From Methyloceanibacter sp. wino2 (lineage in GTDB: Bacteria > Pseudomonadota > Alphaproteobacteria > Rhizobiales > Methyloligellaceae), in NCBI RefSeq assembly GCF_003071365.1, contig NZ_CP028960.1, positions 1,488,001 through 1,552,000 of the forward strand: 64,000 bases of DNA. Reading direction: 5' to 3'. Below are positions 3,221 to 58,414 of this stretch, piece after piece (position 1 is the first letter of the stretch; each line of letters opens with the position of its first letter). Below the pieces are notes generated by a model. It was not told where the DNA came from and searched no databases. It saw only the letters and a program-made list of their open reading frames with translations. The position numbers and the translations under genes are program-made.

Positions 3221-5229
3221 GTCGCCGTAGCCGGGGACGCGTTCTGGCTCTGCACGGTGTCATCGGACGGGGTGAGCGGCCTTCCCATCGCGGCGTCCTC
3301 GCAAATCCCGACCGCTTCATGCAGCGTTGATGCATAGGCATCCGCATGCACCACGTCGAGGAGCTTGCGCCGGGACTCGGCGTCCTCGTCCTCATCCTCC
3401 CGCTCCCAGTAGGCGACCAGGATCAACGTTCCATCGGGCAAGATGCGGCGCAGGCGCCGCACCACGTAGCGAATCTCGACTGGCCCTCCGCCGAAGCCGA
3501 GATAGGACAGGCACACGAGTTTCGCGGGCGTCTCGGTCAGGGCCTCGATCGCGCCGGCGGCGAGCGCGCCGGGTCCGCGCACCTCGGCCTTCATGCCACG
3601 TTTCTCCAGTGCGCGGCCGAGAGCTAGCGCCGCTGCCTTGTCGAGACCGTTCCGCCCGCCAATGCACAAGATCGGTGTGTCGACGGTCCACCCGGCTGCG
3701 AAGTCGTTCGGGTCGACCACCTGAGCGTCCTCGGTCTCGGGCTCGTCGGCGGGCTTGCCGTTCTTGACGGGATCGGCGCCAACCCGTTCCAGGTGACGGC
3801 GCAGCCGCGAGAACCAACGCTTCGGTTCGTACTCGTCGAGATTCTCGAGGATCTCGGAAACCGTGGTCGCGATCCGCTCTGTTTGCTTTTCGCTCAGAGT
3901 CCCGCGCGCCAGGTCCCGCTCGGCGATCCCGAGCCCGCCAAGCGCAACCTCATCGAGATAGGTGAGAAGGCTCTGGTCCTTGAGCGCGAGTTCGGCCTGG
4001 TAGGTCGCGTTGGAGGAATCGCCGATCAGAACGTGCCGGTAGAAGCTTTCCGATGGCAGCAAGGCGGGCTGGTCCCCAAGCAGCACGTCGAAGAAGCGCA
4101 ACCCATCCACATGGCGGCCGAGCACCGCGAGACAAACCGTGATGGGCGTGGCGATGATGAGGCCGACCGGTCCCCAAAGCCACGTCCAGAACACTTGGCT
4201 GACGATCACGGCGACCGGCGTCACACCGGTACCGCGCCCATAGACCAGCGGCTCGACAATCTGCCCCATGGTGAATTCGCCCACCACGAACAGGGCGATC
4301 ACCACGAGAACGAGAGTCCAGCCTGGATCGATGGCCGCGGCGATCAGGACCGGGATGGCGGCGGCAATGTAGGAGCCCACGTAGGGGACGAAGCGCATCA
4401 CCATCGCAAGGATGCCCCAGGCGACGGGACTGGGCATGCCGACGGCCCACAGCGCGATGCCGATGAACGTGCCGTAGGCCGCATTCACGAGCACCTGGCG
4501 CAGGAAGTAGCCGCTGAGCCGCGTCGCGGCCTCGCTCATGGTCGACGTCGCGCGCTGCAGGTCGGTACCGCCGAACAGGCGGATGATCCTGTCCCGCAAG
4601 TCCTCGCGCTCGAGAAGAAAGAAGACCACGAACAGAAGGATGATGCCTGCCGTCGCGAGCGGCGGCAGAACCTTGCCCGCTATGGATCGGTAGAAATCGA
4701 GACCCGTGGGCGCGGGCACACGGATCTCGACCGGGATGGGCTCCGGTTCGGAGCTGTCCTCGGTAATCTCGACGTGACCGGGCTTGGTGCCCTCGACCTC
4801 CGTGGGCCGGTCCAACTGGCTCTCGAGCTCCGAGAGTACGTCACCCGCCTTTGTGAGCACCTGGGACTCCGCCGTGGTCTCCCGCAGCATCTGGATCTTT
4901 TGCGACAGCGTAAAGCGGTAGCTCGGCAGGTTACCCGCAAGCTTCGTCGCCTCGTGGGAGATCATCCAGCCGAGGCCGCCGAGAATCGAGAATGCCACCG
5001 CCACGACGACGACCACGGCCAGGATTCGTGGCACTTTGATGCGCTGGAGAAGAAGCAGCGGCGGCGTGAGCACGAAGCTCAGCAGGATCGCGACCGCCAA
5101 GGGGAGCAGGACTTCTTGTGCGAAATACAGGCCGCCGATCACGATGGCCGCGATCAGAAGCCCTTGGAGAACATTGGCACGGCTGTCTGCCGCGGTCTGC
5201 CCGGCCGGCAAAGGCGAACGGGGCGTCAT
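3217..5229 (-). CDS. AI-2E/PerM family transporter with C-terminal Rossmann-like extension
   Basis: Protein of 670 residues, roughly twice the usual family length. Residues about 20-385 are the AI-2E transporter (PerM/YdiK/TqsA) fold with several long hydrophobic helices and the conserved region around GPVGLIIATPITVCLAV. The periplasmic-type loop between the second and third membrane groups contains a Glu/Pro-rich stretch (about residues 140-175). After a linker, residues about 513-620 look like a cytoplasmic alpha/beta domain (TPILCIGGRNGLDKAAALAL, LVCLSYLGFGGGP, GTLILVAYW) resembling B12-binding or response-type Rossmann folds but lacking the DxHxxG cobalamin motif. The start ATG has GGGAG 6 nt upstream. 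The family name reflects E. coli TqsA; many members export other solutes or ions, so quorum-sensing function should not be assumed. Confidence 0.82.
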   Translation of the reverse strand: MTPRSPLPAGQTAADSRANVLQGLLIAAIVIGGLYFAQEVLLPLAVAILLSFVLTPPLLLLQRIKVPRILAVVVVVAVAFSILGGLGWMISHEATKLAGNLPSYRFTLSQKIQMLRETTAESQVLTKAGDVLSELESQLDRPTEVEGTKPGHVEITEDSSEPEPIPVEIRVPAPTGLDFYRSIAGKVLPPLATAGIILLFVVFFLLEREDLRDRIIRLFGGTDLQRATSTMSEAATRLSGYFLRQVLVNAAYGTFIGIALWAVGMPSPVAWGILAMVMRFVPYVGSYIAAAIPVLIAAAIDPGWTLVLVVIALFVVGEFTMGQIVEPLVYGRGTGVTPVAVIVSQVFWTWLWGPVGLIIATPITVCLAVLGRHVDGLRFFDVLLGDQPALLPSESFYRHVLIGDSSNATYQAELALKDQSLLTYLDEVALGGLGIAERDLARGTLSEKQTERIATTVSEILENLDEYEPKRWFSRLRRHLERVGADPVKNGKPADEPETEDAQVVDPNDFAAGWTVDTPILCIGGRNGLDKAAALALGRALEKRGMKAEVRGPGALAAGAIEALTETPAKLVCLSYLGFGGGPVEIRYVVRRLRRILPDGTLILVAYWEREDEDEDAESRRKLLDVVHADAYASTLHEAVGICEDAAMGRPLTPSDDTVQSQNASPATAT

Positions 5230-5359
5230 GGCGATCTCCCGGCCGCGGCGGAGCGCGCGGCATCAGAGCCTAGAGTGCCGTTCCTGTCAGGAAAGCTCAA
5301 GCAAGGACGCAGGCGAGCCGGGCGCTGTCTGTGGACGATTCACCGCTCGGAACGAGGGC

Positions 5360-6295
5360 CTAGCCGAGTTCGTCGCCGCGCTCCATGGGCCGGAACATCT
5401 CGCCCGTGTCCAACGTTTCGGCGTTGCAGAAATACTGGAAGATCGTGCGGCGGCGGCGGTCGAAGACATCGTAATAGCCGGCTGCACCCCAGACGAGGAT
5501 CGTCGCTTCGCCATTCGTCACGCGGTCGGCTAGCTTGGGCGTCGAGTCGCATTGCACGATCAGTGTCGTGGTCCCGTCCCGGCCGACACGCGGACGCGAC
5601 GATGCGGGCGCCGAATCATCGGGAACGGCCTTTACCGGCAGGTCCGCTTCGTCGGCAATGTCGACGACCTCCATCTCGGCCAGGGTTTCGAGCTTGAACG
5701 CCGGCGTATGACCCGAGTTGCGGAAGGTGACCTTCACTTTGACGATGCCGTCCGCCTCCGGCGTCTCGACGAATTCGAGCGAGTCCACATCCACATAGGC
5801 GCGCAGCTCGGCTTCGTGGTCGCCGGTCCTCGGCGCAGGCGTCAACCGCGCCGGCGCGGCGCCGCCCTCGGCGGCCCGGCGTGCCGCGAGCGCGGCGGTG
5901 ATGATGGGCCACAGCATCAGGAGCAAGATCACAAGGGCAACCAGGCCGATCAGCATGATCAGCCGCGTCAGCCGTGCCGTGCTCTCGGATGCGTCCGCCG
6001 CACGCGATTGCTGGCAGACGTCGGCTTGATAGGGATGCTGGACGTTCGCGCACGGTTTCGAGATGTCCCATGCAGCCTTCGGCTCTTCGGCGTCCTCTTC
6101 CGCTTCTTCGCTCGTTGGCTCGGTTTGCTCCGTGGCGGTCTCGGCATCGTCCGGCGCGTCTTGGGCCCGAGCCGCAGGGGTCCCTAAGACGATCAGGCAG
6201 AGCGACAAGAACACGGCGAAGGTGAAACAAGACCTGCCGAGACAAGACCCGGCGAGACAAACCCTGGCGAAGGCTTTCTGAAGCGAAGACGTCAT
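5360..6295 (-). CDS. Secreted or membrane protein of unknown function
   Basis: Unrecognised protein of about 311 residues. The chosen ATG is followed by a signal-like hydrophobic segment ending at ARAQ, an acidic linker rich in Glu/Thr/Ala, a Cys pair (KPCANVQ and DVCQQS) and then one membrane helix (IMLIGLVALVILLLMLWPII). The C-terminal half looks like a beta-sandwich (RAYVDVDSLEF, VKVTFRNSGHTPAF) similar to domains found in many alphaproteobacterial membrane proteins with an immunoglobulin-like tail. The reading frame continues upstream to 6403, but the residues there are charged and unlike a leader, so the internal start is preferred; no strong ribosome binding site supports either. Function unknown. 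Confidence 0.6.
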   Translation of the reverse strand: MTSSLQKAFARVCLAGSCLGRSCFTFAVFLSLCLIVLGTPAARAQDAPDDAETATEQTEPTSEEAEEDAEEPKAAWDISKPCANVQHPYQADVCQQSRAADASESTARLTRLIMLIGLVALVILLLMLWPIITAALAARRAAEGGAAPARLTPAPRTGDHEAELRAYVDVDSLEFVETPEADGIVKVKVTFRNSGHTPAFKLETLAEMEVVDIADEADLPVKAVPDDSAPASSRPRVGRDGTTTLIVQCDSTPKLADRVTNGEATILVWGAAGYYDVFDRRRRTIFQYFCNAETLDTGEMFRPMERGDELG

Positions 6296-12289: not shown

Positions 12290-12685
12290 ATGTTGCAGCG
12301 GCGCTCAAATCCCTTCGAAGGTCAAAAGAACGTCTTCGGCGATCCCCTCAGGCCGTGTTCGGACCGGCCGCTCACGGGGTTCTACCGGACGGGCTGCTGC
12401 CACACCGGCCCCGAGGATGCCGGGCTGCATACGGTCTGTGTCGAGGTGACCGAGGCGTTCCTCACGTTTTCCAAGGCGTGTGGGAACGATCTTTCCACGC
12501 CCGTGCCGGATTTCGGCTTTCCGGGCTTGAAGCCGGGGGACCGTTGGTGCCTGTGCGCGGCCCGCTGGCTCGAGGCGTTCGAGGCCGGTAAGGCGCCACG
12601 GGTCGTCCTTGCCGCGACGCACGAGGCCACGCTCGAGCTCGTGGAGCTCGAAGACCTCAAACGCTATGCCATCGACCTGGCCTGA
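12290..12685 (+). CDS. DUF2237 family protein
   Basis: Soluble protein of 131 residues matching the conserved DUF2237 family: NVFGDPLRPCS, DRPLTGFYRTGCC, GLHTVCVEVTEAFL, then FPGLKPGDRWCLCAARW and ATHEATLELV. The family is widespread and always carries this Cys-containing core; no reaction is known. The Cys positions (SxPLTGFYRxGCC and WCLCAxRW) could bind a metal or form disulfides (inference). The gene starts 64 bp after mepA and may be cotranscribed with it; the ribosome binding site is weak. Confidence 0.85.
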   Translation: MLQRRSNPFEGQKNVFGDPLRPCSDRPLTGFYRTGCCHTGPEDAGLHTVCVEVTEAFLTFSKACGNDLSTPVPDFGFPGLKPGDRWCLCAARWLEAFEAGKAPRVVLAATHEATLELVELEDLKRYAIDLA

Positions 12686-12778
12686 GCGCGGCGGCGACAG
12701 GCACAGAACTGGCTTGTTGCGCCCATCCGGAGGTGGCAGCATGCGCGCCGAGTCCACGAACGGGTACCCTGCGGCGCA

Positions 12779-52875: not shown

Positions 52876-53520
52876 ATGTTCGCGCGGGTTACGACGGTTG
52901 CATTCGAGGGCATAGAAGCCCGCGCGGTCGATGTGCAGGTGCAGATCAGCTCCGGGATGCCGGCCTTCACCATCGTTGGCCTGCCCGACAAGGCTGTCGC
53001 GGAAAGCCGCGAACGGGTGCGCGGTGCGCTGAACGCCATAGGGCTGGCGCTGCCGCCCAAACGCATCACCGTCAATCTCGCCCCCGCCGACCTCCCCAAG
53101 GAAGGCAGCCATTACGATCTGCCCATCGCCCTCGGGGTGATGGCTTCCGCCGGGGCAATTGCGCCGGACGCGATCGAGGGCCACTGCGTCCTTGGTGAAC
53201 TGGCGCTCGACGGCTCGATCGCGGCCATTGCGGGCGCGCTGCCGGCGGCCGTTGGCGCCAATGCGATGGACAAGGGGCTGATCTGCCCCGGGCCCTGCGG
53301 CGCGGAAGCCGCCTGGGCCGCCGCCGATATGCCGATCCTGGCCCCGGCGGATCTGCTGCAGCTCATCAACCATTTCAAAGGCCTCCAGACCTTGCGGCGG
53401 CCCGAGCCCAATCTGGAGCCGGAAGATGAAGCGATGCCGGATCTGGCCGACATCAAGGGGCAGGAAACCGCGAAGCGCGCCCTGGAAGTGGCGGCCGCCG
53501 GCGGGCATCACTTTTTCATG
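52876..53520 (+). pseudogene. comM: comM 5' fragment (YifB/Mg-chelatase-like helicase), interrupted
   Basis: The first 214-215 codons of ComM: FARVTTVAFEGIEARAVDVQVQI begins the ChlI-like N-terminal domain (Lon-protease-type fold), with GLPDKAVAESRERVRGALNAIG, PPKRITVNLAPADLPKEGSHYDLPIAL and, before the break, ADIKGQETAKRALEVAAAGGHH. The frame then runs into element DNA and stops at 53589 after 22 foreign residues. It lacks Walker A and the whole ATPase half. ComM is a hexameric helicase that drives branch migration during natural transformation. The right part of the gene is at 57521-58414; joining at the shared ATG gives an uninterrupted 511-residue frame. Confidence 0.93.
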
Positions 53521-53585
53521 TTGAGTTTTCAATGCCAAATCCGGCCATCAGACCGAAAAAACTTGACCCAAGATCATTTTTTAAC

Positions 53586-53600
53586 TTGATCTTAGATCAA
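53586..53600. promoter_or_regulatory. Palindromic operator upstream of the element's regulator genes
   Basis: TTGATCTTAGATCAA is a perfect 15-bp palindrome 41 nt before the ATG at 53641; a degenerate half (AAGATCA at 53569-53575) lies just upstream. TTGACC at 53562 could serve as a -35 element. The XRE-type protein encoded downstream is the most likely binder (autoregulation; inference). Confidence 0.6.
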
Positions 53601-53640
53601 CCATCACCACATACTCATCAGAATTCAAGAGGTTCGAACT

Positions 53641-54000
53641 ATGGCGCGAGATTCCGACGGGCCGCCGCAGGGGCACACGGCAACGAACCCCAGCCCGCGG
53701 CAAGAAGAAATTTGGATACGGGCGTTCGTTGAGTACTCGGGCACAGGCGGTGTCACGTGTTTTTGTCAGGCTGATATGGGCGGGGTGTCGCTGACGCGGG
53801 CTATCGAGGCCTTGCAGTTGGGCGAATGCGTCCTCAGTTCGAAGTGCGAAGGCCCGGGAGCTATTTGTGTTTTTGAGCATGAGTCTGAGGACGACACGGT
53901 GGAGGTGACCGTGTTTTTTGACAGTTCGATTCATGCGCTTGAGATTCGTGCAGCGTGCGTGGTTAAGGAGGAAAATGAAGGTGAACCAGATGCAGCATGA
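53641..54000 (+). CDS. Small protein of unknown function in the element
   Basis: Unrecognised protein of 119 residues. The N-terminal 25 residues are polar and probably disordered; the rest looks alpha/beta: EEIWIRAFVEYSG, VSLTRAIEALQLGECVLSSKC, GAICVFEH, and DTVEVTVFFDSSIHALEIRAACVV. The pattern of a helix, then GE(xx)hx, then paired beta strands ending in a hydrophobic strand is reminiscent of MqsR/DUF4258-like small toxins, and it precedes an XRE-type gene as mqsR precedes mqsA; this likeness is weak and unproven. Its end overlaps the next gene by 26 nt. Base composition is AT-rich relative to the host. Confidence 0.55.
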   Translation: MARDSDGPPQGHTATNPSPRQEEIWIRAFVEYSGTGGVTCFCQADMGGVSLTRAIEALQLGECVLSSKCEGPGAICVFEHESEDDTVEVTVFFDSSIHALEIRAACVVKEENEGEPDAA

Positions 54001-54619
54001 CTTCGTTGACGGTCCTGTTGCACGGGACTACAGCGAAATGTTGGGAACACCATTCAAGGTTTTCTTGAGCAATGGTGTCGAGGAGAAGATAGATAAGAAA
54101 TCTGGGAAGTTGAAGACCAGCATAGTTGACCTTCCTGGTCTTATTGCAACCATCGTCCAAGCGCGGGTGTTGCATCCGAGGAAGTTCTCTGGGAAAGACC
54201 TAAAGTACATTAGGTCGGCGCTTGCGATGCGGTCTTTTCAGGTCGCAGAAGCGCTCGATATCTCGCCGGAACATTATAGTAGGTGTGAGTCTGGCACTAA
54301 GACTCTCTCTACTTCCGCAGAGAAGCTATTGCGGATGTGCGCCTTCTATCTTGCCCAGTGCAAGGACGTCTCCTTTCTGGAGGAGCGGAAGGAAGCTAAG
54401 TCGGTATCCGAACTTTCCGATGAGGAGAGGGAGGCCGCAAGAGAAGCAGTTGGAGCTTTTCGAAGCGTATTTTTCGATATGAAGATCGAGAATGTCTTTG
54501 AAGCTGGCAAAGAATTGGAGCTTTCGTTTTCTCGAGGCTGTCGAGAGCACATAGAGGACGAAAGTTGTAACGACGAACGCGGTAAGTGGCGGGAACGCCA
54601 TGAGAAGGTAGCCGCCTAA
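53975..54619 (+). CDS. XRE-type helix-turn-helix regulator of the element
   Basis: Protein of 214 residues. The central part holds a Cro/XRE-like HTH: KFSGKDLKYIRSALAMRSFQVAEALDISPEHYSRCESG, followed by TSAEKLLRMCAFYL, typical of antitoxin or repressor HTH domains (the RKhSGKxLKxIR start is common in rhizobial regulators of this type). The N-terminal 70 residues lack Cys, unlike MqsA zinc domains. The C-terminal 80 residues are acidic and helical. Start at 53975 is strongly supported by AAGGAGG 4 nt upstream, overlapping the preceding gene by 26 nt, so the pair is translationally coupled. Likely controls the operon through the palindrome at 53586; antitoxin role is possible. Confidence 0.75.
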   Translation: MKVNQMQHDFVDGPVARDYSEMLGTPFKVFLSNGVEEKIDKKSGKLKTSIVDLPGLIATIVQARVLHPRKFSGKDLKYIRSALAMRSFQVAEALDISPEHYSRCESGTKTLSTSAEKLLRMCAFYLAQCKDVSFLEERKEAKSVSELSDEEREAAREAVGAFRSVFFDMKIENVFEAGKELELSFSRGCREHIEDESCNDERGKWRERHEKVAA

Positions 54620-54656
54620 GACCGGATACAATGGAAGCGACCTAGAACCTAACAAG

Positions 54657-54690
54657 AGCCCCGCGCCTATTGGTTTGCGGGGCTTTTCTT
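54657..54690 (+). terminator. Intrinsic terminator of the element's plus-strand operon
   Basis: 8-bp stem AGCCCCGC / GCGGGGCT with a 12-nt loop, followed by TTTCTTT, 38 nt after the stop of the XRE gene. Confidence 0.9.
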
Positions 54691-54997
54691 TGCCGCTCAG
54701 ACCGTCTGGCTCGATAGCAGCATGAGCCTCTCCGAATGATGGCCAAATCGGTCTATTGGCCGATAATCCACCTTCCAAAAACGGCTAAACCCTAGTATAC
54801 CTCAGTCTCCCGTCATGGCGGGAACCCATCTAGACCGATATTGACAGACTAGGTTCAAAACTTTCCCGATTTTCAATCTAAGAATGGTGGTTAAGACTAT
54901 GACCTAATACCATATATATACATTTATAGACTTTTGATTGCATTATTATTGTTTTCTACTTACAGGACTGTGCAATTTGCACACTAGTGCTTGCACA
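54691..54997. other. AT-rich intergenic region with repeats inside the element
   Basis: No gene is seen. The left part has a short hairpin TCCCG-tcatgg-CGGGA (54808-54823). Positions about 54890-54960 are very AT-rich (atatatata, tttatagactttt). At the right edge a palindrome TGTGCAAtTTGCACA (54969-54983) overlaps direct repeats (see separate entry). A replication start, a recombination accessory site or a control site are possible. Confidence 0.6.
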
Positions 54998-55001
54998 CTA
55001 G
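54969..55001. repeat. Direct repeat TTGCACACTAG and palindrome at the end of the ParB-like gene
   Basis: TTGCACACTAG occurs at 54977-54987 and again at 54991-55001, separated by TGC; the first copy is also part of the perfect palindrome TGTGCAAtTTGCACA. The second copy runs into the stop codon of the ParB-like gene. Arrangement resembles a small iteron or binding-site cluster, with an AT-rich stretch alongside. Confidence 0.7.
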
Positions 55002-55828
55002 ACATCGAACTCAGTCTCTACCTCGGAAAGCAACTCTACGTCTTTTCCCGTCCAGTAGTGGACTAGTTGCCCAGGAAAGTCCGAATTCAGGATTTCAAGG
55101 GCCATTGCCACGATATCGGCATGCGCCCCAAAGTCGGATGGGAGATGTTTCGCCCACTGACTTGCCCACTTCTGGGCCTTCAACTGCCGCCAATCTCCCT
55201 CGCAGTTGGCAGTTTGCTCATCAAACTGCAGCGTTCGGGCCTGTCGCCAAGTCATGGCGCCAGCCTGGGGGTGCTCTCCGAGAACCTTTGCCATCGTGGA
55301 GACCGTGCGTCTGCTTATGGTCGCCGCCTTGGCAATGGCCGACTGGCTCTCATCGCCCTGGCGAACGAGCCTCCAAGCCGCCTCAAGCTTGTCCCGAGTA
55401 CTTATCGGCAGCTTGTTTTTTGAGTTGCGTTTGAGAGCCTCAACCTGAGCGCCCTTTAGGCCGCCATCGAAGTACTCGACGGGTACTGGCTGACACCAAT
55501 CGACGCTGTGGTACGCGTCAAATCGATGGTGGCCGTCGAGGACGTAGAACCTAGCGCCTATCGGGGCGACCAGGAGCGGGTCTAGCGGAGAAGCGTTGTC
55601 GACCAGGACCCGCACAAGTTCCCTCATGTGTGCGTCGTCCGCCGTCTGTGTCAGCCGCAGGTCGCGCCACTGAAACACCTCCGGCGCGACATGTATTTGT
55701 CCGAGGTCCAGTTTGGGCGGCCTTTCTGTTGGCGGTCGCTCGACCCTCTCAGCCTCCCTGAGCGACTCGTAACCGATTCTGGATTCCCACGAAGGTCGCC
55801 TGATTTCGGGGTATGCTCTTGAGTTCAT
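54998..55828 (-). CDS. ParB-like nuclease-domain protein of the element
   Basis: Protein of 276 residues. The N-terminal 60 residues are charged linker. Then comes a ParB/Srx-like N-terminal domain: PLLVAPIGARFYVLDGHHRFDAYHSV has the GHHR phosphate-binding motif typical of ParB-like proteins (CTP- or ATP-binding fold). A helix-turn-helix follows, ISTRDKLEAAWRLVRQGDESQSAIAKAATISRRTVSTMAKVL. The C-terminal part is Trp/Gln-rich (WRQARTLQFDEQ, WRQLKAQKWASQWAKHL). No ParA is encoded nearby, so plasmid partitioning is unlikely. The ATG overlaps the recombinase stop by one base (TGATG), so it is translationally coupled; a regulatory or recombination-accessory role is inferred. Confidence 0.82.
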   Translation of the reverse strand: MNSRAYPEIRRPSWESRIGYESLREAERVERPPTERPPKLDLGQIHVAPEVFQWRDLRLTQTADDAHMRELVRVLVDNASPLDPLLVAPIGARFYVLDGHHRFDAYHSVDWCQPVPVEYFDGGLKGAQVEALKRNSKNKLPISTRDKLEAAWRLVRQGDESQSAIAKAATISRRTVSTMAKVLGEHPQAGAMTWRQARTLQFDEQTANCEGDWRQLKAQKWASQWAKHLPSDFGAHADIVAMALEILNSDFPGQLVHYWTGKDVELLSEVETEFDV

Positions 55829-57432
55829 CAGCTCGCCCCTTCGCCATCAAACAAGCGGCAATGCCGCGACTGGAAACTAACATTATCCGTGGTCTGAGCA
55901 CTGTGGTGCCAGTGTATCGAGAGGCTCGCAGCCTCCGGGTCCATGACTATCTTGCTAACCGCTTCCCGCAACGCCTTGTTGGCCTGTTCCACGTCAAGCG
56001 GACGCTGCGCTAGAGCGTCCCTGAGCGCAGCGAGCCTTCGCCCCACAAATGGCTGAGCCAATGCGTCTCTCCGGGCTAGAAGCTCTGCTAGGCTGTCTTG
56101 GGCTAAACGAAGCTCATCCTCCTTTTCCAGAAGCAGCCTGCGGAGCGCGGGGCTCTTCGCAACCAGCAATTCATCTGCCAAATCGCGGGCGTCATCGCTC
56201 AGCACGCCCACGATGATGTCCTGCGACTCAATCTCTTCTTCGAGTTCCGCGGAACTGAGCCCACGAGGCGCATCGCGGCAAATAGCCGTTGCGTTCGTGA
56301 CCAGAGCATCCTCGACGTGTCGGTACGGGACGGCGCAATACGCGCAGTCACTAGCGCCCTTTCGGTGGGCCTCTGAACAAACTAGGTAGACGTACTTGCC
56401 CTTAGACACCCTGGTCACCAGACCGCCGCAACGGGCACATCGAATTACACCGGCAAAGATGGAAGCGGGCTTCCTCGACGCATTTCGACCTTTAGGGGCT
56501 ACGGCCAGCATGCGAGCTCTGATGCGCCCAAAGACCTCAGGCTCTATGACAGTTGGAAAGTAACCCTCAATAGGTTCGAGCTTTTCGCGCTTGATTTTGC
56601 CATGACGGTCCTCGCGCTTTTGCTGCGGGGTGAAAGTGCCCACGACGGCCGGATTAGTGAGGAGCTTCTTTACGTAAGAACGGTGCCAGTGCTTTGCTTT
56701 GCGCTGCTTACCGCGTCCTCCCCAGGTTGGAATCTTCTGGTCGTTGAGCCAGGCAGCAATCCTATGCTGGCCCCAGCCTTCGTCGGCTTTGGCAAAAATG
56801 GTCCGCAGGACCTCGGCCCTTTCAGGGATAGCAACGTGCCTCTTCGCCGCATCATCCCACCGGAGCCACCCAGGAAGCATGCGGGTAAACGGCTCCGCTA
56901 GTCCGGCCTTGGCCTTAACTCGCTTGTTCTCATAAACCGCCAGCAGCCTTCTGGATTTCATCGCGCTCTCTTGATGGGCGCGTATGAAGCCAAGAGCCAT
57001 GATGATGAACTCATGGCCACCGTCTTTTTGGAGGGTCTCGGCGTTGTAGACCTTCCCGTCGTAAGACAGGTCAACGAGGTTTATCCCCGCATGCACGATT
57101 TCGTGCATCTTGCCCACGGCCTGCCACACCGTTTCCCGACTAATGCGGTCAAGACTCTCAACGAGCAAATACGAGCCGGTGGCGATAACTCCGGTTCTCA
57201 CCGCGTCGAGAAACTCGCCAAGCTTACCTGACTCTATGTTGAGGCCACGAAACGCGGAGGTCCCTAGGTCCTGGTATGTCAGCGTCTCGTCAAAATCGAG
57301 GTCATGCCGGGCGGCATACTCCCTAGCGGCTTCCATCTGTCTGCGTAGGCTGTCGCCACGAGCCTGCTCGGGGGTAGAGAACCGCACGTAGCTATAGGCC
57401 TTAGGCCGCAAAGCTAGACTCGCATCAGTCAC
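55828..57432 (-). CDS. Large serine recombinase (integrase) of the element
   Basis: Site-specific recombinase of 534 residues. The resolvase domain begins YSYVRFSTPEQARGDSLRRQ, with the nucleophilic Ser in the RFS motif, and has LLVESLDRISRE. A Recombinase domain (LPGWLRWDDAAKRHVAIPERAEVLRTIFAKADEGWGQHRIAAWLN) and a zinc ribbon (CARCGG...VCSEAHRKGASDCAYC) follow, then a long coiled-coil C-terminus with LLEKEDELRLAQDSLAELLARRD. This is the architecture of serine integrases such as phiC31-type and those of ICE/IME elements. Start is a GTG with GGAGGA 6 nt upstream; the first 18 codons of the longer frame are hydrophobic and unlikely. It points toward the ParB-like gene and away from the right attachment end. 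Confidence 0.93.
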   Translation of the reverse strand: MTDASLALRPKAYSYVRFSTPEQARGDSLRRQMEAAREYAARHDLDFDETLTYQDLGTSAFRGLNIESGKLGEFLDAVRTGVIATGSYLLVESLDRISRETVWQAVGKMHEIVHAGINLVDLSYDGKVYNAETLQKDGGHEFIIMALGFIRAHQESAMKSRRLLAVYENKRVKAKAGLAEPFTRMLPGWLRWDDAAKRHVAIPERAEVLRTIFAKADEGWGQHRIAAWLNDQKIPTWGGRGKQRKAKHWHRSYVKKLLTNPAVVGTFTPQQKREDRHGKIKREKLEPIEGYFPTVIEPEVFGRIRARMLAVAPKGRNASRKPASIFAGVIRCARCGGLVTRVSKGKYVYLVCSEAHRKGASDCAYCAVPYRHVEDALVTNATAICRDAPRGLSSAELEEEIESQDIIVGVLSDDARDLADELLVAKSPALRRLLLEKEDELRLAQDSLAELLARRDALAQPFVGRRLAALRDALAQRPLDVEQANKALREAVSKIVMDPEAASLSIHWHHSAQTTDNVSFQSRHCRLFDGEGAS

Positions 57433-57473
57433 TTTCGTTCCTCCACCAAGCCCCAGCGACAACGAACTGCTGA

Positions 57474-57487
57474 GGAGCAAAATCATG
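57474..57487 (+). promoter_or_regulatory. Element-supplied ribosome binding site and ATG for comM 3' part
   Basis: GAGGAG at about 57472-57477 followed 7 nt later by an ATG at 57485 that continues in frame for 12 codons into comM. Together they would let the ATPase half of ComM be translated from a transcript starting in the element. Confidence 0.55.
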
Positions 57488-58414
57488 GGTCATAATTGTC
57501 ATTCAAGCAATAACATTCTGATGGTGGGACCGCCGGGATCGGGCAAATCCATGCTCGCCAAACGCCTGCCCTCGATCCTGCCGCCTCTCGAACCCGCCGA
57601 AATGCTGGAAGTCAGCATGATCCGCAGCCTTGCCGGCGATCTTGCGGGAGGGCGGATCGGGCGCAACCGGCCCTTCCGCGCGCCTCACCATTCCGCCAGC
57701 ATGGCCGCGCTGGTCGGCGGGGGCACCCGGCCCCGCCCCGGCGAAGTGGCGCTGGCCCATCTCGGCGTCCTGTTTCTCGACGAATTGCCCGAGTTCAACC
57801 CCCAGGTCCTCGACGCGCTGCGGCAGCCGCTCGAGAGCGGTGAGACGATCATCGCGCGGGCGAACCACCGCATCGCCTATCCCTCCCGGGTGCAACTCGT
57901 CGCCGCCATGAACCCCTGCCGTTGCGGCCACGCGGGCGAGCCGGGCCATGTCTGCCGCCAGGGGCAATCCTGCGCGGCGCGCTACCAGGCGCGCATCTCC
58001 GGGCCGCTGCTCGACCGGATTGACTTGCAGATCGAGGTGCCGGCCGTCTCTGCCGCCGATCTGGTGCTGCCGCGCGCCTCCGAAGGCAGCGCCGAGGTGC
58101 GGGAGCGCGTGGCTGCGGCACGGTCCATCCAAACGGCGCGCTACCGGAGCCTTGGCCTGCCGCAGGTGCGGACCAACGCGGAGGCCGACGGACAGGTTCT
58201 GGAGAAGGTGGCCACGCCCGATGCGCAAGGATTGGGACTCTTGCGCGATGCGGCGCGAACACTCTCTTTGAGCGCCCGCGGCTATCATCGGACCTTGCGC
58301 GTGGCACGCACGCTTGCGGACCTGGACGGGGCGGAGACCGTCTCCCGCATCCACATCGCCGAGGCGCTCAGCTATCGCGGCGAGGCCCTGCGCCGGACGA
58401 AAGTGGCGGCCTGA
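57485..58414 (+). pseudogene. comM: comM 3' fragment (AAA+ ATPase half), possibly expressed from the element
   Basis: The remaining 298 codons of ComM from 57521 onward: VGPPGSGKSMLAKRLPSILPPLEPAEML (Walker A complete), GRNRPFRAPHHSASMAALVGG, LGVLFLDELPEFNPQVLDALRQPLESG (Walker B-like), CGHAGEPGHVCRQGQSC, and the C-terminal Mg_chelatase_C region RGYHRTLRVARTLADLDGAE. The 12 residues before (MGHNCHSSNNIL) derive from the element. The fragment contains all nucleotide-binding elements but lacks the N-terminal domain, so full ComM function is unlikely from this part alone. The whole frame is intact and not decaying, suggesting a recent insertion or continued use. Confidence 0.88.

Follow-up and report, generated by a model that had tools for sequence, protein, structure and literature searches.

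A ParB-like gene coupled to a serine integrase in a small comM element is best seen as part of a putative exchangeable ParA-less ParB-site cassette

Analysis of a 64,000-nucleotide stretch of the Methyloceanibacter sp. wino2 genome, referred to below as the window, revealed a large serine integrase gene joined to a parB-like gene in a mini-island that has integrated in comM. We observed that coupling of the two genes extends throughout one clade of related integrases, and that a DNA element composed of three half-sites, located behind parB, travels with parB and not with the integrase. Our preferred interpretation is that the integrase is combined with an exchangeable ParA-less ParB-site cassette, which would be a variant of maintenance or regulatory modules already known and in which the tripartite binding site is newly predicted here. 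What is shown concerns DNA features and phylogeny; the function that we propose for the cassette is inferred. Coordinates of the features are collected in Table 1.

Table 1. Features of the comM element in the window, and positions of a short open reading frame in related loci.
Feature	Coordinates	Strand	Evidence or remarks
5′ part of comM (Mg-chelatase-like ATPase gene), left flank	52876..53517	+	Pfam ChlI/Mg_chelatase
Whole integrated element, 4003 bp	53518..57520	.	Vacant sites in same-genus genomes L161-L168
Cargo gene 1, 119 AA, no family, probable partner of gene 2	53641..54000	+	ORF
Cargo gene 2, 214 AA, XRE-type helix-turn-helix, overlaps gene 1	53975..54619	+	HTH_31 E 0.001
Tripartite site AGTGTGCAAGCACTAGTGTGCAAATTGCACAGT, putative ParB cognate (parS-like)	54967..54999	-	Half-site, spacer, palindrome (half-3-half); single copy
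ParB-like protein, 276 AA	54998..55828	-	ParB/Srx domain (box II DGHHR), HTH 143-185, helical C-terminal domain
Large serine integrase, 534 AA	55828..57432	-	Resolvase, Recombinase, Zn_ribbon_recom domains (Pfam); phrog_95 integrase E 3e-71
3′ part of comM, right flank	57521..58414	+	Pfam Mg_chelatase and Mg_chelatase_C
ORF of approximately 65 AA, in related loci	L051 6603-6776; L081 9777-9977; L084 9779-9979; L085 9775-9972; L086 9775-9972; L088 9772-9972

The bounds of the element are given by an ATG common to attL (53518-53520) and attR (57521-57523), and the crossover point lies within the Walker A region of comM (GGHH-F-x-M-VGPPG). Fusion of the flanks at the common ATG yields a 511-AA ComM product that aligns gap-free, at 98.8% identity, with the intact L161 protein from the same genus, and comM is unbroken in same-genus genomes (L161-L168). 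As the fused flanks restore comM, the size of the element can be set at 4,003 bp. This position of the integrase and ParB genes within a 4-kb comM insertion had been missed in the first-pass annotation. Judged from its domains and from site-specific insertion at a short common core, with an intact empty site in relatives, the integrase gene product is a large serine integrase; it carries the catalytic SYVRFS motif with the active serine, the arginine motif ESLDRISRE and four zinc-ribbon cysteines. The GTG at 57432 is well supported as its start, by a strong Shine-Dalgarno sequence (GGAGG) 7 nt upstream and by relatives that align from there; the ORF list also holds a longer alternative from an ATG at 57486, reading towards attR. 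The two cargo genes (53641-54619) look like a toxin-antitoxin pair. Cargo gene 1 gave no match in Pfam, PHROGs, NCBIfam or PADLOC, and cargo gene 2 matched an MqsA-family model under the cut-off (E 1e-5). At another locus (L225, pair at 1143-2106) a 41% identical homologue of cargo gene 2 is likewise paired, being preceded by a distant homologue of cargo gene 1 (E 1e-6), and because of this distant homologous pair the cargo genes seem to be mobile and toxin-antitoxin-like.

At the junction the minus strand reads ...GGC GAA GGG GCG AGC TGA/TG AAC TCA, so that the integrase ends with ...EGAS and TGA and the ParB-like ORF opens with ATG-AAC-TCA. Base 55828 is common to the TGA stop and the ATG start, as the first-pass annotation had described (TGATG). 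A single overlap of this kind, taken alone, is unremarkable. Yet in all 12 members of one integrase clade the parB start lies at most 4 nt inside or 8 nt past the integrase stop: the genes overlap by 4 nt in L081, L082, L083 and L085 and by 1 nt in the window element and L084, and are separated by 1-8 nt in L051, L080, L086 (two elements), L087 and L088. Since every clade member keeps the parB start within -4 to +8 nt of the stop, coupling goes beyond chance, and translational coupling of the two genes is probable from this arrangement.

Scanning genome contigs with an alignment of integrases gave 80 loci; in 70 of these the flanking DNA examined contains comM sequence, mostly abutting the integrase. 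In a tree of 85 integrases, parB follows the integrase directly in 12, and these 12 constitute one clade (SH-aLRT 99); a coupled parB was found for 0 of the 73 related integrases outside it. The tree thus points to one origin of the coupling. The first-pass annotation had called for such a survey of gene adjacency, and had held that absence of the ParB-like gene from most similar elements would refute its proposal. For the family as a whole that absence is what we see, 73 of 85 integrases having no neighboring ParB, but within the nearest clade direct coupling is universal, and the proposed module of integrase and ParB-like gene proved to be real, conserved and carried by a mobile element.

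Elements of the clade are approximately 4-10 kb long, come mostly from Bradyrhizobium and hold one or few cargo genes, e.g. for a NucC-like nuclease (L081), an AbiU-like protein (L132) or an Mrr-type nuclease (L086). No relaxase or replication gene was recognized in the clade elements examined. A sub-branch of the same clade inserts at another, second position of comM, close to codon 43 (VGLPDKAV/SEARERV), as seen in L080, L087 and the first element of L086 (REC at 4140-5810); L086 contains two tandem elements in one comM, with differing ParBs (41% identity). A small serine recombinase is present in 33 of the 73 comM-type integrase loci without ParB (L092, L094-L095, L098-L099, L104-L106, L138 and others) and in 0 of 11 loci of the ParB-coupled clade. 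Insertion in comM is itself not new in kind, since the serine recombinase sr1WO of Wolbachia phage WO inserts in a magnesium chelatase gene (PMC9203015). Both are serine recombinase elements that split this type of gene; phage WO differs in being a full prophage, in which sr1WO has no methylase/ParB gene, and neither a coupled ParB nor a tripartite site is reported for it (PMC9203015).

The ParB-like protein matches the PHROGs family phrog_1033, 'ParB-like partition protein' (E 8e-11), while its match to TIGR00180 (E 1e-4) is under the cut-off and its Pfam matches are likewise sub-threshold. In an AlphaFold2 model (pLDDT 88.9), whose top structural matches are Noc, KorB and Spo0J/ParB, a ParB/Srx N-domain is followed by a helix-turn-helix (HTH), the arrangement that defines the ParB/Spo0J/Noc/KorB superfamily. 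With KorB of RK2, Noc and Spo0J/ParB the protein shares this fold and, putatively, a palindromic half-site target; it differs from them in having DGHHR for GERR and three half-sites in the putative target, and the window element has no ParA or KorA partner. DGHHR takes the place of the CTP-binding motif GERRxRA in the window protein and in nearly all of 21 aligned homologues, so that the CTP clamp may be absent. The same replacement is found in the wider ParB/sulfiredoxin/serine-kinase fold, and the sulfiredoxin and serine-kinase matches of the protein were taken as reflecting a common fold only. Used as sole query against genome contigs, plasmids and phages, the window ParB gave no match; a class-wide search with a ParB alignment, in which 6 candidates per genome were scored, added two loci. 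An ordinary plasmid partition gene was rejected, as known plasmids gave just weak matches, and PADLOC did not match the protein as a defense protein. Elsewhere, of 26 loci with a ParB homologue, 19 have a tyrosine integrase nearby and 22 a small serine recombinase.

Just downstream of parB, whichever integrase is present, we found a common layout: a half-site, approximately 10 nt, then a palindrome of two half-sites. In the window the site is GTGCA-AGCACTAGT-GTGCA-AAT-TGCAC, and homologues associated with tyrosine integrases show the same layout with other cores (L062, GTCCA...GTCCA-AAA-TGGAC; L220, GTACA...GTACA-TTT-TGTAC). The site was spotted by eye first and scored later, and some of the 39 homologues are near-duplicates; with this in mind, a three-part layout score of at least 16 was reached in 21 of 39 ParB loci vs. 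1.5 expected from dinucleotide shuffles, and in 0/39 and 1/39 for two control regions. Between coupled elements, with site boundaries drawn by hand, similarity of the site tracks that of ParB (Mantel rho 0.44, p 0.001) but does not follow the integrase (-0.23). The half-site core (TGCA, TCCA, TACA or, as in L051, CCCC) associates, uncorrected for phylogeny, with ParB residues 172-174, which form the start of the recognition helix in the predicted HTH. The site is intergenic, and because the next gene is convergent in the window, L080, L085, L086, L087 and L088, its position in these elements is centromere-like rather than that of a promoter operator. Among other candidates, a simple scan lists no terminator at the site and Rfam gives no match to a known RNA there. 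An AT-rich tract (54850-54990) adjoins the site in the window; a conserved AT-rich origin was dismissed, as the tract is absent in relatives. In L081 a second similar GTGCAAGAAGGAC...TATGCACCC copy occurs downstream of parB (12498-12700), approximately 100 nt after the first.

Taken together, the slot kept clade-wide, the exchange of cassettes, the enrichment and covariation of the site, the association of its core with the HTH, and the fold argue for a parB-parS-like cassette without ParA that would be expressed along with the integrase and would maintain or control the excised circle; we consider this explanation about as probable as all the others together. The cassette would form part of the integrase operon in a comM-targeting mini-island, and ParB would bind the tripartite site through its HTH. 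As parB would be translated from the integrase message, ParB would be made when the integrase is made, i.e. while the element is moving. The complex of ParB with its site may then keep or position the excised circle until re-integration, which could be achieved by tethering to the nucleoid, by a ParA borrowed from the host or a helper, or by exclusion of related elements. The same cassette would serve tyrosine-integrase islands, with cassettes being swapped between integrases. Several features count against the cassette, namely the missing ParA, box II DGHHR, the majority of related integrases without a coupled ParB, and one site copy in the window element vs. several in many centromeres. A more specific form, to which we give distinctly less credence though it remains a serious candidate, is a ParA-independent plug-in for maintenance or exclusion by a single protein, made of the DGHHR-type ParB and a three-half-site centromere, that is used by both integrase chemistries, was captured once and has its partition triggered by translation of the serine integrase.

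Plasmid partition loci are ordered parA-parB-parS. The order integrase-parB-site recalls this arrangement, the integrase standing where parA would be; type I parABS loci have parA in the same locus, whereas no ORF of the 4-kb window element encodes a ParA and none was recognized in the related elements. The integrase of SXT/R391 elements is a tyrosine integrase. In these elements a single promoter drives int together with the partition genes srpM and srpR, and srpMRC resembles the proposed cassette in this joint expression and in stabilizing the excised circle (PMC4489591); it differs in being of ParM type with an actin-like ATPase, and the proteins are unrelated. The first-pass annotation had argued that a ParB without ParA makes little sense for partitioning, a premise which is not safe in view of R388 StbA and SGI1 (PMC3098194, PMC10954446). 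StbA stabilizes plasmid R388 without the ParA-like StbB, and StbA-stbDRs is thus comparable as a single DNA-binding protein with cis repeats and no need for a ParA-like ATPase, although StbA is not homologous to ParB and its direct repeats are upstream of the gene (PMC3098194). SGI1 has parS sites but no Par proteins of its own, these being supplied by the helper plasmid (PMC10954446). The Dehalococcoides ssrA island (DsiB/DsiA/ParBc) also brings together a large serine integrase, a small serine recombinase and ParBc, but has ssrA as target and a ParB uncoupled from the integrase (PMC3146451), and a small serine recombinase is absent from the 11 loci of the ParB-coupled clade. In our loci L062-L076, L178 and L216-L223, genomic islands repeatedly combine a ParB homologue with a DUF6538 tyrosine integrase and a small serine recombinase, a gene set that resembles the Dehalococcoides one.

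It had been suggested in the first-pass annotation that ParB could be the recombination directionality factor (RDF), which would bind the integrase and permit excision. The coupling, constant in one clade, fits this proposal, and the window element does not have the small ORF found ahead of the integrase in most relatives. To our knowledge the known RDFs are mutually unrelated, so that a ParB-like one is possible a priori. An RDF is, however, expected to be inherited with its cognate integrase, whereas the identities of integrase and ParB are uncorrelated over all clade pairs (Spearman -0.05; Mantel -0.09, p 0.78) and the cassettes have been exchanged: integrases of L051, L086 and L088, 81% identical and at the same comM site, are accompanied by ParBs with only 30-34% identity, while L085 and the second L086 element, with 40% identical integrases at different comM places, have ParBs that are 71% identical. 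In the phiC31 family it is the RDF that is better conserved (85% identity vs. 43% across the integrase domains that bind it; PMC11530663). An RDF should also be present in elements that use the integrase family, yet the coupled gene is confined to one clade (12/12) and missing from the 73 integrases around it; moreover, the conserved site adjoins parB and not att. With identities uncorrelated and homologues beside other recombinases, the tyrosine integrases included, an RDF specific to one serine integrase is unlikely, and we regard the RDF role of ParB as improbable.

The main rival to the cassette reading is distant regulation of the KorB or Noc type, where ParB would load at the tripartite site and repress the integrase promoter or the cargo for copy control or immunity against a second element. 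The close fold match to KorB agrees with it, and ParB and site diversify as an immunity specificity would, the 41% identity of the ParBs in the tandem L086 elements included; but the site is at the 3′ end of the operon, approximately 2.5 kb from the integrase start and often between convergent genes, and no second site was found near the integrase promoter, which leaves such a regulator rather unlikely. Alternatively, the ParB/Srx protein might nick or initiate replication at the palindrome, as at an oriT or origin, and so mobilize or replicate the circle. ParB-like nuclease families have the same fold, the site could form hairpins and adjoins the AT-rich tract in the window, and the clade elements are small and, where examined, without a recognized relaxase or replication gene. 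Since that tract is not conserved among relatives and the association of site core and HTH suggests duplex binding, we find this proposal slightly less credible still than an RDF. That the coupling is an accident fixed in one integrase clade, with ParB as cargo that has no role in the life of the element, would agree with the one origin and with the lack of ParB in most sister lineages; it is the least probable account, and very improbable, given that the coupling has been kept in 12 of 12 members despite repeated replacement of parB, the site along with it.

Little is understood about how very small integrative elements persist once excised. If the cassette reading is true, it would describe a minimal ParA-less maintenance or exclusion system tied to an integrase, would account for the orphan ParB genes of genomic islands, and would make parB with the tripartite site a label for finding such islands. 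It would also redirect the search for the RDF, e.g. to a gene of approximately 65 codons upstream of the integrase in most relatives. This conserved ORF, missing from the window element, is situated between att and the integrase gene in 9 of 12 clade members. L082 and L083 are without it; there the integrase N-terminus resembles the start of the ORF, which seems to have been fused to the integrase. Six sequences of the ORF differ mostly at third codon positions (0.29, 0.22 and 0.43 for the three positions), an apparent sign of purifying selection on a real gene, which makes the ORF a better RDF lead than ParB, as a candidate only.
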